From a virus, in IMG/VR virus record IMGVR_UViG_3300047320_000207, positions 1 through 30,954 of that record: DNA of 30,954 nucleotides; one strand, 5' to 3'. Within the stretch, counting starts at the first letter, position 1. Each line of letters begins with the position of its first letter. A program made the translations under genes and the position numbers. The notes beneath the pieces are model-generated. The model did not search any database and had not been told where the DNA came from. It saw nothing but the letters and a program-made list of their open reading frames with translations. Below are positions 19,885 through 25,531 of this stretch, piece after piece.

Positions 19885-21042
19885 GTGTCGCTGAAAATAT
19901 TTGTGAGCTATGCGAAGGAAGACAGAGAGCACGCTTTAAAATACTACGATCTTCTCATTCAAGAAGGGATGCTTCCTTGGATAGACGTGAAACACATCCT
20001 CCCCGGTCAGAACTGGGAAGCAGAAATTAGCAGAGCATTCCAAGACGCCAACGTAGTCGTCCTGCTAATCAGCAACAAAAGTGTCAATAAGCGGGGCTTT
20101 GTTCAAAGAGAAGCAAACGATGCCATCGAGCGCCTCAGATACAAGCAGCCGACCGATATTTACGTACTACCTTTGCTTCTTGAGCCGTGTGATGTTCCAA
20201 GTCACATTTCTGTACGCCTTCAATACGTTGATCTCAGTACATCTGGGGCATGGGAACAGGTGAAAGCCTCACTCCGATTGGCTGCTGAACAACAGTCAAT
20301 TGAGCTTACCCAAGGTTTGAATGCTGGCGCGTTTAAAATTTTTTCTGAGCAGCTTGAAGATCACTGGGAAGGCGCACCAGGTCATGACATAAAAATTGAA
20401 TATCCGCGATTCGAGTCAACATCTCATCGCGCAGCTGCCAAGGAACTGACCCTATTCTTCGGTGGACGAGCCACTAGTGGATTAATTGAATCAAGACAGA
20501 AGCCTTGGGATCAGCAGCCTGAAATGTTTCCTCAGGTTGGCGGATACGTTGCAACGAACGGGCGTTGGGAGAGTTATGGAGTCGTCCATGCAACCGATCA
20601 ATTCCTCAGCCTGACATATGAGGTCAGCTGGTATGGAGCTGGCGCGGCACATCCAAATTCGTACTTTGAGACCTACAATTTTTCGATGCCTGAGCGACTT
20701 CAACTTTTGGGTCTTGATGATTTTTTCAGTGACAGGGATGCCGCTGTACAACGCATCAGCGAGTTGTGTGTCGCCGAGTTGTGCCGAGAGTATTGGAGGC
20801 GGTTTAGTGAAAAGCCAGACGAGCACCAGATTCAGTGGTTCAACGACGGCGCAGGTGCGAAAGCCGATAACTTCACTAAATTTACTGTCAGTGCAGACCA
20901 TTTCACATTTTTGTTTGCGCCATACGAAGTTAGCGCCTATGCCTGTGGAAACTGGAGCGTAGACGTCTCTTTTTATGACCTTCTCGAGACTTTAAAGCCG
21001 GACGGACCTCACCTACTTGCGGCGCAACAAGCGATTATCTAA
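19885..21042 (+). CDS. TIR domain protein with RsiV/PdaC-like (DUF4163/DUF3298) C-terminal domain
   Basis: The protein has 385 residues and a GTG start at 19885 with GGGGGAT upstream. Residues 1 to about 135 are a TIR domain: KIFVSYAKEDRE (BB-like first strand and loop), then PWIDVKHILPGQNWEAEISRAF, VVVLLISN, and RGFVQREAND, where Glu76 is at the position of the catalytic Glu of NAD-cleaving TIRs. Residues about 165 to 365 look like a DUF4163/DUF3298 module, with GAGAAHPN (251-258), YNF (264-266) and PYEVSAYACG (346-355). In RsiV this module binds lysozyme. There is no signal peptide or membrane segment, so it is presumably cytosolic. Gene content is visibly AT-richer than its neighbours, and the strand is opposite to the late operon: a moron. 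A defence or toxin role via NAD cleavage is inferred. Confidence 0.85.
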   Translation: MSLKIFVSYAKEDREHALKYYDLLIQEGMLPWIDVKHILPGQNWEAEISRAFQDANVVVLLISNKSVNKRGFVQREANDAIERLRYKQPTDIYVLPLLLEPCDVPSHISVRLQYVDLSTSGAWEQVKASLRLAAEQQSIELTQGLNAGAFKIFSEQLEDHWEGAPGHDIKIEYPRFESTSHRAAAKELTLFFGGRATSGLIESRQKPWDQQPEMFPQVGGYVATNGRWESYGVVHATDQFLSLTYEVSWYGAGAAHPNSYFETYNFSMPERLQLLGLDDFFSDRDAAVQRISELCVAELCREYWRRFSEKPDEHQIQWFNDGAGAKADNFTKFTVSADHFTFLFAPYEVSAYACGNWSVDVSFYDLLETLKPDGPHLLAAQQAII

Positions 21043-21213: not shown

Positions 21214-21551
21214 TAGGCGTTGTCGCCCGGCGCCGATTCCGCTACACCCAGTCGTTTCGCAACCCAGCGCTCGTATAGACCGATAGCAACATCGGCGCCC
21301 GCCATCGCTGTCAGGCAACCCAAGCTTCCAGCTGTCCAAATCGACATGCCTGCACCGACCATCAGCATCATTGCCGACACGCCACACACGATACAGGCGC
21401 CAGATCGCAGAGCCAGTCGGCGCAATAGCACCCAACCTCGCGCACCGTCCTTATCCGCCCGCCACATCTCACCCGACACACCACCTACCAGGGCCAGGAC
21501 GATCACTAACCAGATCGGCATTTCTGCCAGCGCTTGCTGTTCATTTGTCAT
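21213..21551 (-). CDS. Holin-like protein
   Basis: This 112-residue small membrane protein has an N-terminal hydrophobic segment (PIWLVIVLALVGGVSG, about residues 12-27). Two more follow in the ACIVCGVSAMMLMVGAGMSIW and AGSLGCLTAMAGADVAIGLY region (about 52-93). The end is charged (ERWVAKRLGVAESAPGDNA). This suits a phage holin, which forms the membrane lesion at lysis. It is the first gene after the Q-like gene and the tR'-like terminator, the position of the lysis genes in lambda-like phages. No endolysin follows in the window; it may lie beyond the tape measure protein, as in P2-like tail modules. It could instead be an unrelated membrane protein. Confidence 0.72.
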   Translation of the reverse strand: MTNEQQALAEMPIWLVIVLALVGGVSGEMWRADKDGARGWVLLRRLALRSGACIVCGVSAMMLMVGAGMSIWTAGSLGCLTAMAGADVAIGLYERWVAKRLGVAESAPGDNA

Positions 21552-21814: not shown

Positions 21815-22303
21815 TCAGCAAACCCGCGTACGCTTGCTCATTGATGCACGCGTGTAGTTGGTTTCCACCGTACCGCTGCGGCGCTCACGCCCATGTGTTG
21901 TTGCACTGCGCACGGTCAGTATCAACAACACCTGCTGGTGCAAACGATGCACCCAGTTTCTGTAGGTCCGGTCAGCATCCTCGGCCAGCTGTAACAACCG
22001 AAGCTGCTCACGCACAGTCATGGGAGGCTGGGCCAAGTATCGATTGCGAGCCAACAGAGCCAGCTGGGCGCCCTTCTTCGATTGCCGTTCGAGCTGCGCC
22101 ACAGCAGCGGCAACCTCGGTGCTGGCATGGTCCATACCACCGCCGGCCGACATCATCAGATCTCGCGACCCCGGAGTACCACGGGGAGCGCAGCCGCCAT
22201 ACTGCATGATCGTCGCCATCGGACTGCCCAAACCACCACCGTCGCCAATCTGGCCGTGCTGCGCGCCCCAATGCTGCATCAACGCTTCAACTTCCTCGAT
22301 CAT
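21815..22303 (-). CDS. Probable late-gene regulator in the Q position (antitermination-like)
   Basis: The protein has 162 residues from the ATG at 22303 (MIEEVEALMQHWGAQHGQIG). The frame is open up to 22369, but the extra N-terminus falls in the iteron region and has no family character. It contains GLGSPMATIMQYGGCAPRGTPGSRD and, near residues 105-125, LLQLAEDADRTYRNWVHRLHQQVL, a helix-turn-helix-like segment seen in small phage regulators of late transcription. Position argues for Q: after replication genes, before a strong terminator and holin. The residual C-terminal tail is basic. Family assignment is tentative; it could be another early DNA-binding protein. Confidence 0.55.
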   Translation of the reverse strand: MIEEVEALMQHWGAQHGQIGDGGGLGSPMATIMQYGGCAPRGTPGSRDLMMSAGGGMDHASTEVAAAVAQLERQSKKGAQLALLARNRYLAQPPMTVREQLRLLQLAEDADRTYRNWVHRLHQQVLLILTVRSATTHGRERRSGTVETNYTRASMSKRTRVC

Positions 22304-22326
22304 CGCCCCACTCCCCTGAAAATCGA

Positions 22327-22619
22327 ACCCGACACAAAAAACACGCAACCCAACACAAACCCAACACAACTAAAAACCTTATAAATCAATAGCTTTAATC
22401 GAATTGTGTTTAGTGTGTTGAGTTTGTTGGGTATTTCCGTCCTCGCATGAAGAAAATAATCAGTCATCAGAAACCGAACAAATAACGTCACGCATGCGCA
22501 CACGCGTAGCGAAACCCAACACACCTGACACAAAGCCCGCAAACTGCCGAAATAGAAGGTTCCAATCTGTGTGGGGTATCCGAAATCAACCCAACACACA
22601 CTCGACACACCCGACACAC
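22327..22619. repeat. Iteron cluster: 11-mers of ACCCAACACAA type, candidate phage replication origin
   Basis: The 328-base gap between the Q-like gene and the primase-helicase gene holds about a dozen variants of ACCCAACACAA. Direct copies begin at 22327, 22348 and 22359 (the last two identical and contiguous), 22514, 22523, 22589, 22600 and 22609. Copies in the opposite orientation span 22404-22414, 22413-22423, 22422-22432 and about 22567-22577. Spacing is 9-11 bases within groups. Between the first direct group and the inverted group is an AT-rich segment (about 22371-22405) that could be an unwinding element. The location next to the prim-pol/helicase gene supports an origin. Alternatively, it is an operator array or antitermination site. 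Confidence 0.6.
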
Positions 22620-22631
22620 TTTTAGCTGTAG

Positions 22632-25328
22632 TCATGCGGCAGCCACCTTGATGTGGTCCCAACTGTCCACATGCCAGCCCGCCAGCTTCGCCTTGGCCCG
22701 CCAGTGTTCCACTTGCTTGCCCAGCTCGGCCGCCTTCAGTGATGGGGGCGGGGAAGCGTCCGGATCGACGGGAAAGAAGAACGCGCCAAAGCGCCGGTTG
22801 TTGCCATCGGTCCAAGGAATGGCGCGGGTTTTATCGACCTCAGAACTGATGAACAGCGAGAACTTCGTCTGACTCATCACATGCTCTTTGTTGCGCTGGC
22901 ACCATTCGAGGAACAGCGAATAGAGATCGGTCGACAGACATGGACCCCAAAGCCCCTGGCCCAACTCGCCGTACTTCCACAGATGCAAGAACGTCTGCCA
23001 TCCCGCCCGACTCAAGGCCACCAAGCGCTCACGGGCATCCGTCGACGGCGGTCGCGTCCGCTGGTTGAAGTCGCCCAGATCGACCGACCGCAACCAACCG
23101 TATAGGGCCGCGACACCACCCTGCTCCAGCTCCCGCCCGATTGCCTTCTGCCGCTCGACCGGCAACGTTTCCATGGGCCACATCACCAGCATCCGCCGGT
23201 CACTGTCGCTGATCGGCCACGGCAAAATTTCGTTGCTCAGGAACACCGCGTTCATATGGTTGGCTTCCTCCCAACCGTTGATGAACTTCGATTCCATCCT
23301 CACCGTTTTACCGGTGATCAGGTGCTTGATCTTGCCCACCTGGTTGTATCGTTGATCGCGGCTCACCACCTCTTCGAACACCGACCACAACTTGCGGCTT
23401 TGCCAAGCGTTGAAGTTGCTCTCCAACTGCGTCTGGCCGACCGTGGCCGCGTACTGGCCGTACAACATGCCCAGTGCATCGGCGAACAGCAGGCTTTTGC
23501 CTGAGCCCTCCATGATCGAGTGCATCAGCACGGCGGTGTCCATCTTGGCGCCCAGGTGCTGCAACGGGTACGCCAGCCAGCGGGTCAGCCATTGGTGCGC
23601 CGCTTCATCGTGGTTGCACAAAAACGAAATCAGCCAACGCAGGTTCGCGCAGGCTTCGTCATCCCTGACAGGTTCGAGCGGCAGGCCATCAAAGGTATTG
23701 ATGTACACCGCAGGATCCTTGCTCATGGTCGGATCAAACACGATATGTTCGACATCCACGGTGCGCCGCCCGCTGCTGTTCAGCCACAGTGGATAAGTGT
23801 CGCCCAGCGCCATCTTCACCGCGCCCTCGGCAATACGCCGCTTCTTTTCCCGATCCCAAACATCCTTGGTGCCATCGATGTACACATATCGGTCAGTCGG
23901 TGGCATGCCGAACGCACCGCCCTTCTTGCCCGCCATGCGCCGTGCTTGCTCAATGTCACGGACGTGATCATCCGCAATCAACCGCTTGCCCATGTCATCC
24001 ATCCACGCCTTGGCAAGCGGCTTGCCCACCCGCGCTTCAAATGCGGCTTTCTTCATCACCCGCGACTGGTCGCAGTCCCACACTTGCGTGGTGCCCTCGA
24101 CCAGTGCAAAACGACGAAGCAACTGGCCAAGCGTCAGTGACTCCCCCGCGCCCCCATCAGGAGCCGGAGCGGCCTCGCTGACTTCGTCGGCGCCAGAGCT
24201 CGGCTCGCACTGATCACCAGATGGGGTCGGGGGAAGATCACGCGGATCAGGGCGCGAGGAATGCTGCATACCCATCATGCGAGCAGCGTCCTTCACCGCC
24301 TTCGACTGGTCCCCGCCATGCTCAAGCAAACAGAACACCTCGAAGGCGTCATTCTGATGCCCGTTCGCGAGCGGATCGGCACCGTGGTGCGAATAGACCT
24401 TGCCCTCAGCAATTGTCACACCCGGCAGGCCGGTGCTGCTCTGCGGGTAAAGCCACTTGCTGCCCCGCTTGATGTAACCGTGGGTACGCAGAAGTTCTTC
24501 AACGTCATGGCAACGATTGAACTCATCAATTACCGACGGGCGTTGACCCACCGCAACTGCTGGACGCTTGGCAACCTTCGCCAGTGGCGTGATCGGCTTG
24601 ATCGCCCAGGGGCATGCCGCTTCGGCATCGCGTTTAAAGAAGTCCCAGTTTTGCCAGACAGAAAGCAACTCATCGGTCAGCGTTGGCAAGCCGTCCGCGG
24701 CGTTGGGCGGGGTTCTCCAGGTGTAAGGCTTGCCGGTACCCGGATGAATCGAAGGCGGGAACACGTCCTGTACCAGGCCAGCACGCAGTTCGAATACCGT
24801 GAAGCGCTTGTACTCTTCCGCCTCCGTGCGCGCCGCAGCTTCCCCGACACCATCACCCTGCTCTTTCGCAGCCTTGGCTTTGTCCATCAGGCCTTTGTGG
24901 ATCGAACCGTCAGGATCTTTTTCATTCGGCCACGAGAGAGAATGCCGGGTCAGCTCAATGCCTTCCGGCAGCTTGAACAGCACCCGGAAGCGCGCAGGGT
25001 TGCCGACAATGGTCGGGTACACCAACGCCATTGCATCCAGATCGACACCCAGCAGCTCATACAGCACATGGCGCGTCCACTGAACGTCGTCGACGTCCAG
25101 CGAACAGACACGGCTCGGCCCAAGTACGACGCCGAGGTTGTGATTAGGGTTTCGTTGCCAGAATGCTTCAGCGGTGGCGGCATCGGTAATGTAGCCGCCC
25201 GGTTTGTTCCACCCCAAGCCCTTTGGGGCTTTCTCACCAGGCTCAATGGATACCAGGGCGAGGTCGAAGGTAGTGATGTAACGTTTTGCCCATGTAGCAA
25301 TGGCTATTCCTTTGGCCGGTTCAGTCAT
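22632..25328 (-). CDS. Prim-pol/primase-helicase replication protein
   Basis: The protein has 898 residues starting MTEPAKGIAIATWAKRYITT; the ATG at 25328 gives an ATGA overlap with the zinc-finger gene. Residues 1 to about 215 are a prim-pol (bifunctional DNA primase/polymerase-like) domain: LDVDDV at 77-82 supplies metal-binding acidic residues, with ARFRVLFKL near 112-120 and a His-containing IHPGTGKPYTW near 194-204. A linker of about 200 residues follows. The C-terminal third is a D5/DUF5906-type helicase with Walker A EGSGKS (607-612), a Walker B-like LWSVFEEVV, and FLSNEILPWPISDSDRRMLV (sensor/arginine finger region). It should prime and unwind the phage origin, for which the downstream iterons are the candidate. 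Confidence 0.9.
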   Translation of the reverse strand: MTEPAKGIAIATWAKRYITTFDLALVSIEPGEKAPKGLGWNKPGGYITDAATAEAFWQRNPNHNLGVVLGPSRVCSLDVDDVQWTRHVLYELLGVDLDAMALVYPTIVGNPARFRVLFKLPEGIELTRHSLSWPNEKDPDGSIHKGLMDKAKAAKEQGDGVGEAAARTEAEEYKRFTVFELRAGLVQDVFPPSIHPGTGKPYTWRTPPNAADGLPTLTDELLSVWQNWDFFKRDAEAACPWAIKPITPLAKVAKRPAVAVGQRPSVIDEFNRCHDVEELLRTHGYIKRGSKWLYPQSSTGLPGVTIAEGKVYSHHGADPLANGHQNDAFEVFCLLEHGGDQSKAVKDAARMMGMQHSSRPDPRDLPPTPSGDQCEPSSGADEVSEAAPAPDGGAGESLTLGQLLRRFALVEGTTQVWDCDQSRVMKKAAFEARVGKPLAKAWMDDMGKRLIADDHVRDIEQARRMAGKKGGAFGMPPTDRYVYIDGTKDVWDREKKRRIAEGAVKMALGDTYPLWLNSSGRRTVDVEHIVFDPTMSKDPAVYINTFDGLPLEPVRDDEACANLRWLISFLCNHDEAAHQWLTRWLAYPLQHLGAKMDTAVLMHSIMEGSGKSLLFADALGMLYGQYAATVGQTQLESNFNAWQSRKLWSVFEEVVSRDQRYNQVGKIKHLITGKTVRMESKFINGWEEANHMNAVFLSNEILPWPISDSDRRMLVMWPMETLPVERQKAIGRELEQGGVAALYGWLRSVDLGDFNQRTRPPSTDARERLVALSRAGWQTFLHLWKYGELGQGLWGPCLSTDLYSLFLEWCQRNKEHVMSQTKFSLFISSEVDKTRAIPWTDGNNRRFGAFFFPVDPDASPPPSLKAAELGKQVEHWRAKAKLAGWHVDSWDHIKVAAA

Positions 25329-25531
25329 CGCCGAGCCTCCCGCAACCCCTGGCATTCGACGCAGGTTTGGCAACCTGCAATCGTCTGCTGTCGAAGCAAC
25401 GGGATAGGATCATCGCAATCCGCGCAAAACTGGGCGCTGACGCGGCTAGATGGCGCAAGGCGACTGCGCTGAAGCGCAACGTCGAGCAGGTATTGCGCCT
25501 GGTCGTTGGCGCGATCGATTTCGTCAGCCAT
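25325..25531 (-). CDS. TraR/DksA-type C4 zinc-finger protein
   Basis: The protein has 68 residues from the ATG at 25531 (MADEIDRANDQAQYLLDVALQR). The C-terminal half has two pairs of cysteines, CADC and, 16-19 residues later, CQTC followed by CQG, forming the TraR/DksA zinc finger. TraR-family proteins bind the RNA polymerase secondary channel and mimic ppGpp/DksA effects, shutting down ribosomal promoters. The coding sequence is coupled to the CII-like gene (8-base overlap) and to the primase gene. Phage versions in this position are common and of uncertain role. Confidence 0.9.
   Translation of the reverse strand: MADEIDRANDQAQYLLDVALQRSRLAPSSRVSAQFCADCDDPIPLLRQQTIAGCQTCVECQGLREARR

Follow-up and report, generated by a model that had tools for sequence, protein, structure and literature searches.

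A conserved iteron array directly 3' of a prim-pol/helicase gene as the probable replication origin of a Pseudomonas-type temperate phage

Does the non-coding gap that directly follows the prim-pol/helicase gene of this phage serve as its replication origin, and which part of which protein would then recognise it? The window analysed here is the whole 30,954-nucleotide stretch of IMG/VR record IMGVR_UViG_3300047320_000207, in which the proposed origin occupies positions 22304..22631 (328 bases, minus strand). A sequence-only reading had described about 12 repeat variants in both orientations in this gap beside the prim-pol/helicase gene, two of them identical and contiguous (22348-22368), as well as an AT-rich segment with direct copies on one side and inverted copies on the other; all of these are present in the sequence.

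The iteron array and other elements of the gap

In total, we identified 12 copies of TGTGTTGGGT (reverse complement ACCCAACACA), in both orientations, extending over 22327-22618 and laid out as 3+1+2 iterons, followed by three inverted iterons, an AT-rich core and three direct iterons. In the following, distances are counted from the stop codon on the prim-pol strand, with the sign giving the orientation; copies with a plus sign lie on the minus strand of the window and those with a minus sign on its plus strand. The array opens with three direct copies, iteron 1 (TGTGTCGGGT, 22609..22618, +14), iteron 2 (TGTGTCGAGT, 22600..22609, +23) and iteron 3 (TGTGTTGGGT, 22589..22598, +34), followed by the inverted iteron 4 (TGTGTGGGGT, 22568..22577, -55) and the pair formed by iteron 5 (TGTGTCAGGT, 22523..22532, +100) and iteron 6 (TGTGTTGGGT, 22514..22523, +109). 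Iterons 7 (TTTGTTGGGT, 22423..22432, -200), 8 (TGTGTTGAGT, 22414..22423, -209) and 9 (TGTGTTTAGT, 22405..22414, -218) are all inverted, and beyond the AT-rich core the array closes with iterons 10 (TGTGTTGGGT, 22359..22368, +264), 11 (TGTGTTGGGT, 22348..22357, +275) and 12 (TGTGTCGGGT, 22327..22336, +296). The spacing of 9-11 bases reported earlier holds for the direct steps, which are 9 or 11, but larger steps of 21, 45-46 and 91 also occur.

The array lies far above chance level. Four exact copies of TGTGTTGGGT were observed in the gap against 0.01 expected from dinucleotide shuffles, and nine copies with at most one mismatch against 0.16 expected (1000 dinucleotide shuffles, maximum 3). Outside the gap, a single copy with at most one mismatch was found in the whole ~31-kb window, at 21471. 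Allowing up to two mismatches within the gap adds two chance matches, at +150 and +280.

The AT-rich core (22369..22404, minus strand), which separates the inverted from the direct iterons, contains TTGATTTATAAGGTTTTT and is a candidate DNA unwinding element. Together with two further minus-strand elements it forms a non-iteron skeleton that stays constant in relatives while the repeats change: a 20-nt alternating purine-pyrimidine, GC-rich run (TACGCGTGTGCGCATGCGTG, 22489..22508), kept across iteron classes with a median run of 18 nt as against 8 in shuffled sequence, and a T-rich tract with an ATGCG-containing CATGCGAGGA element (22440..22459), kept in many relatives (71 of 149 by a strict pattern). 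Both of these elements, at 22440-22459 and 22489-22508, are retained whatever the iteron class. The one terminator-like match in the gap is the alternating GC run itself, no more than was obtained in shuffles. Searches of the window gap returned no sigma-70 promoter-like site, no Rfam match and no DnaA box of the kind that an iteron plasmid (RepA/DnaA type) has in its origin, and third-position GC skew shows no switch at the gap, being uninformative as origin evidence. A few origins of the TGTCTAGGGT class (L097, L104 and also L323) have a perfect DnaA box (TTATCCACA) within the spacer.

Inverted iterons around an AT-rich core can pair. A stem-loop might be what chiefly marks the gap as an origin, as proposed for the pRN1-type replication proteins that combine prim-pol, SF3 and winged-helix parts. 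For pRN1, a stem-loop on the 3' side of the gene is required, and the study in question carries the idea over to phages (PMC4234260). However, DNA folding of the window gap was no better than that of shuffles (z -1.07), the direct repeats are also kept, and the arms are spaced 9/9 on one side and 11/21 on the other, so that continuous pairing is not maintained. We regard recognition as a stem-loop as highly improbable.

Conservation of the array and natural recombinants

The sequence-only reading had suggested conservation of the iterons in relatives with the same replicase as a check. About 375 loci were collected, many of them overlapping and mainly from Pseudomonas phages and prophages, and were deduplicated to 280 loci in which the helicase ORF is present and followed by 320 nt or more of sequence. 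De novo detection gave a repeat family at 280 of 280 loci, always in the same position, the gap that immediately follows this primase-helicase gene on its 3' side. Of the first 90 loci to be scored, nearly all have the fixed 12-iteron layout, with 9-bp shifts in the spacer, and in ten whole phage records all but one of ~94 exact matches to TGTGTYGGGT fall within the gap. In the L138 gap, the first iteron block has grown into an extended series of tandem 9-bp repeats of the GTGTGCAGG type.

The repeat itself differs between relatives. The most common class, TGTGTTGGGT, was found at 212 loci, followed by TGTCTAGGGT (20), TGTGTCAGGT (11), TGTGTCGGGT (10) and TGTGTAGGGT (7); rarer classes are TGGTTAGGGT (5), TTACTAGGGT and TGTGCAGGGT (3 each), GTGCTAGGGT and TGACTAGGGT (2 each), plus singletons. 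The change is concerted, most copies within one array switching together. Mixed arrays with two repeat types are few, for example L317/L319 and L318/L321; since L317 and L319 carry both types in one array, recognition appears to be degenerate.

Natural recombinants indicate which part of the locus the repeat goes with. In phage KT1 (L005), the primase half and the DNA upstream of it are 86-92% like L002/L082, whereas the helicase half, from about residue 405, and the array with it derive from the TGGTTAGGGT lineage and resemble L091; past the following gene, the DNA is again 88% like L002. Phages PG1 and pAN carry an unrelated Toprim/PriCT_2 primase half, together with a C-terminal half 81% identical to that of the window and the window's iterons. 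One and the same iteron class also precedes different, unrelated next genes; in the window the next gene is phrog_4300 (21815..22303, minus strand), which is not linked to iteron class. These recombinants and the varying next genes show that repeat identity follows the C-terminal helicase half, independently of the primase half, of the upstream genes and of the next gene. The prim-pol half, as the same recombinants show, is exchangeable. At L009:2873-5575 and L010:2873-5572, a Toprim/PriCT_2 half has naturally taken the place of the AEP Prim-Pol half, the helicase half being the same.

These exchanges also bear on a regulatory explanation, in which a phage transcription regulator (CII-like, TraR/DksA-like or the repressor) would use the array as its operator and in this way control the next gene together with the late operon. 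The array is indeed situated immediately before the next gene's start, and CII-like, repressor and HTH regulators are among the products of the phage. In KT1, however, iterons and helicase C-half changed together while the upstream regulator and primase DNA stayed largely unchanged; unrelated next genes follow the same iteron class, the gap has no promoter-like site, and it is the winged helix of the helicase that tracks iteron class (see below). An operator is very unlikely, though slightly less so than the stem-loop.

The predicted initiator and its covariation with the repeat

The proposed initiator, encoded at 22632..25373 (minus strand), combines a Prim-Pol domain (residues 30-230), an SF3-type helicase domain (DUF5906, residues 619-727) and a predicted C-terminal winged helix. 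The ORF is 913 aa long from a TTG start, or 898 aa from an ATG at codon 16; residues are numbered here on the 913-aa ORF, residue 835 becoming 820 with the ATG start. In the AF2 model (mean pLDDT 83), a helix at 814-828, a recognition helix at 835-843 and wing strands within 852-863 form the winged helix. Comparison of the model by Foldseek and VIA-align gave the NrS-1 C-terminal region (CTR) as best match (Z 22.9), together with ASFV PrimPol, vaccinia D5, AAV Rep and SaPI5 PriRep1 (Z 14.8; Z 11.9 for 7pds, its structure with dsDNA). The predicted fold is thus matched by SF3-type initiator helicases.

The segment that covaries with repeat class comprises the recognition helix (835-843) and the wing, at 22785..22892 on the minus strand (codons 828-863 of the 913-aa ORF). 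Residue 835 ranks first of 504 columns in normalised mutual information with iteron class, at two thinning levels. It is Q or H (one Y) at loci with TGTGTT-type repeats, E (18) or D (2) with TGTCTAGGGT, D (3) with TTACTAGGGT, A with TGGTTAGGGT (5) and TGACTAGGGT (2), and G (2) with GTGCTAGGGT. Residue 840 is L by default, G at 19 of the 21 TGTGTC(G/A)GGT loci, and E, together with A839, at 6 of 7 TGTGTA and 2 of 3 TGTGCA loci.

The tree on which coincident change was scored, a single one from which the C-terminal domain had been left out, holds 14 class changes; an unbiased scan placed the best 36-residue window at 827-862. With Q/H/Y and E/D grouped, a grouping chosen post hoc, 6 of the 8 changes at residue 835 fall on class-change branches (p 1.3e-6); sites 578, 580 and 741, outside the winged helix, score about as high. 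L012 and L187 were excluded from the parsimony test because T/C at position 6 is degenerate. The comparison of L319 with L317 as a clean single-letter class change was dropped, both loci carrying mixed repeats. The earlier proposal of an initiator-binding array for the prim-pol protein is supported by co-evolution with that protein, but the part that would read the DNA is best placed in the C-terminal winged helix and not in the prim-pol half.

Plasmid iteron arrays also act in partition and copy control, and the array might accordingly be a centromere-like, incompatibility or packaging site. Against this, no partition family was found among the neighbouring genes, the terminase genes lie ~3 kb away, and the array evolves with the helicase half. 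Of the three alternatives considered, a site of this kind is the one to which we give the least credence.

The gap is very probably the phage replication origin, with iterons that would be bound by the prim-pol/helicase encoded upstream of it, through the C-terminal winged helix; the presence of the array in 280/280 relatives and the co-evolution of repeat sequence and prim-pol/helicase speak for the origin that the sequence-only reading had proposed.

Comparison with satellite origins and a proposed mechanism

Self-loading helicases with a downstream iteron origin are a kind already known from P4, SaPI and PICI. In PICIs, the iterons flank an AT-rich region on both sides, immediately 3' of the gene, and pri-rep-ori supports plasmid replication; this organisation was said to occur in no other known bacterial replicon (PMC6092414). 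SaPI Rep and Cch2 recognise repeats just downstream of their gene via a C-terminal domain (PMC7581432), and PLE replication occurs only with cognate pairs of RepA and origin (PMC8263062). The window shares with the PICI/SaPI systems an origin immediately 3' of a primase-helicase initiator, C-terminal recognition (here predicted) and the SaPI5 PriRep1 fold (PMC6092414, PMC7581432); its initiator likewise is an SF3/AAA+ helicase with a fused primase and a predicted C-terminal DNA-binding domain, and its iteron sets flank an AT-rich region right after the initiator gene, as in the PICI definition (PMC6092414). The co-evolution of repeat and protein and the natural exchange of the cassette would fit an initiator restricted to its cognate iterons. 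The window differs in its 12-iteron array, in its AEP Prim-Pol half and in being part of a temperate phage with a contractile tail, which itself encodes terminase, portal, capsid and sheath. PICIs are satellites that need the structural proteins of a helper phage, whereas terminase, portal, capsid, sheath and tail fibre genes are present here.

In P4, crr lies directly 3' of the alpha gene and type 1 repeats occur in both orientations, an arrangement also seen for the window's own repeat. The left half of the window array (iterons 1-6) has the orientations of P4 ori, FFFRFF, with steps of 9-11-21-45-9 against 10-11-22-43-10. A match to P4 ori geometry within 2 bp was found in 0.2-0.4% of arrays in which the window's spacings and orientations were permuted (p 0.002-0.004), and in 5 per million with uniform positions. 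The right half (three inverted iterons, a 46-bp AT-rich step and direct iterons) recalls the pair-43-inverted step of P4 crr; taken by itself, this crr-like motif does not reach significance, since two or more such modules turn up in 10% of permuted arrays. In contrast to the window repeat TGTGTTGGGT, the P4 type 1 iteron is GGTGAACA, and ori and crr are ~4.5 kb apart in P4, while the two kinds of half-array adjoin in the window. The alpha protein is hardly related in sequence: it gave no significant match to the C-half profile, and TIGR01613, the P4-family primase C-terminal model, scored 19 bits against the window protein, below its cut-off of 108.7.

The primase-polymerase of Nitratiruptor phage NrS-1 consists of a Prim-Pol and a ring-shaped C-terminal region (PMC7102993), the same plan as in the window protein. 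Taken as a positive control for a downstream array, NrS-1 (L379) has neither gap nor array, the next gene starting 3 nt after the primase gene; as NrS-1 is the nearest fold to have been solved, members of the fold family do not all share the layout. SCCmec Cch2 is also a helicase whose C-terminal domain binds downstream direct repeats, at a putative origin (PMC7581432), but it has only three short repeats (AAGTG) and a separate polymerase and primase factor.

Because of the covariation of the C-half, the shared fold and the P4 ori spacing and orientation, we infer that the locus works like the self-loading-helicase origins of P4 and PICI/SaPI. The C-terminal winged helix of the prim-pol/helicase would bind the iterons, with the start of its recognition helix (residue 835) reading the variable left half of the repeat. 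Through the iteron sets on either side of the AT-rich core, helicase rings would then be loaded in opposite orientations, the AAA+ (SF3) motor would melt this core, and the fused prim-pol half (the Toprim half in PG1) would prime the exposed strands for the host replisome.

More tentatively, and with rather less than even confidence, the helicase C-half and a fused ori/crr-like array may constitute a replication-specificity cassette that is exchanged as one unit, with specificity residing largely in a few recognition-helix residues. The code proposed along with it, and put forward just as tentatively, would have Q/H at 835 specify TGTG, E/D a C at position 4, and A either TGGT or TGAC, while G or E at 840 would specify TGTGTC or TGTGTA/TGTGCA, respectively. 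If true, this would provide a readable protein-DNA code and mutually compatible phage replicons, a diversification perhaps driven by satellites or origin-directed nucleases.

A literature search, with subscription journals mostly outside its coverage, found no paper describing such a phage origin. As far as can be told, its occurrence in a large group of complete tailed phages is new, as are the composite layout, in which 12 iterons show a P4-like geometry, the joint transfer of C-half and origin as a cassette whatever the primase type, and the candidate recognition code. A satellite-type (P4/PICI) origin, described as unique to islands, would thereby be placed in widespread complete temperate phages. 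The natural series of matched repeats and recognition helices lets origin finding and opening by self-loading helicases be tested directly, and is a possible source of orthogonal replicons for Pseudomonas.

Besides genes for terminase, portal, capsid, contractile sheath and tail fibre, the window, a prophage or phage fragment, carries repressor, CII-like, TraR-like and prim-pol genes, and its phage is a Pseudomonas-type temperate phage. Between the terminase small subunit and holin genes, on the opposite strand and in a patch of 48% GC, lies a gene (19885-21042, plus strand) whose product joins a TIR domain (E 3e-22) to DUF3298 (E 4e-10) and has a weak PdaC match. Its best PADLOC matches are TIR defence proteins; it is a cargo gene, possibly for a TIR effector in which a further domain would sense the cell wall or lysozyme.
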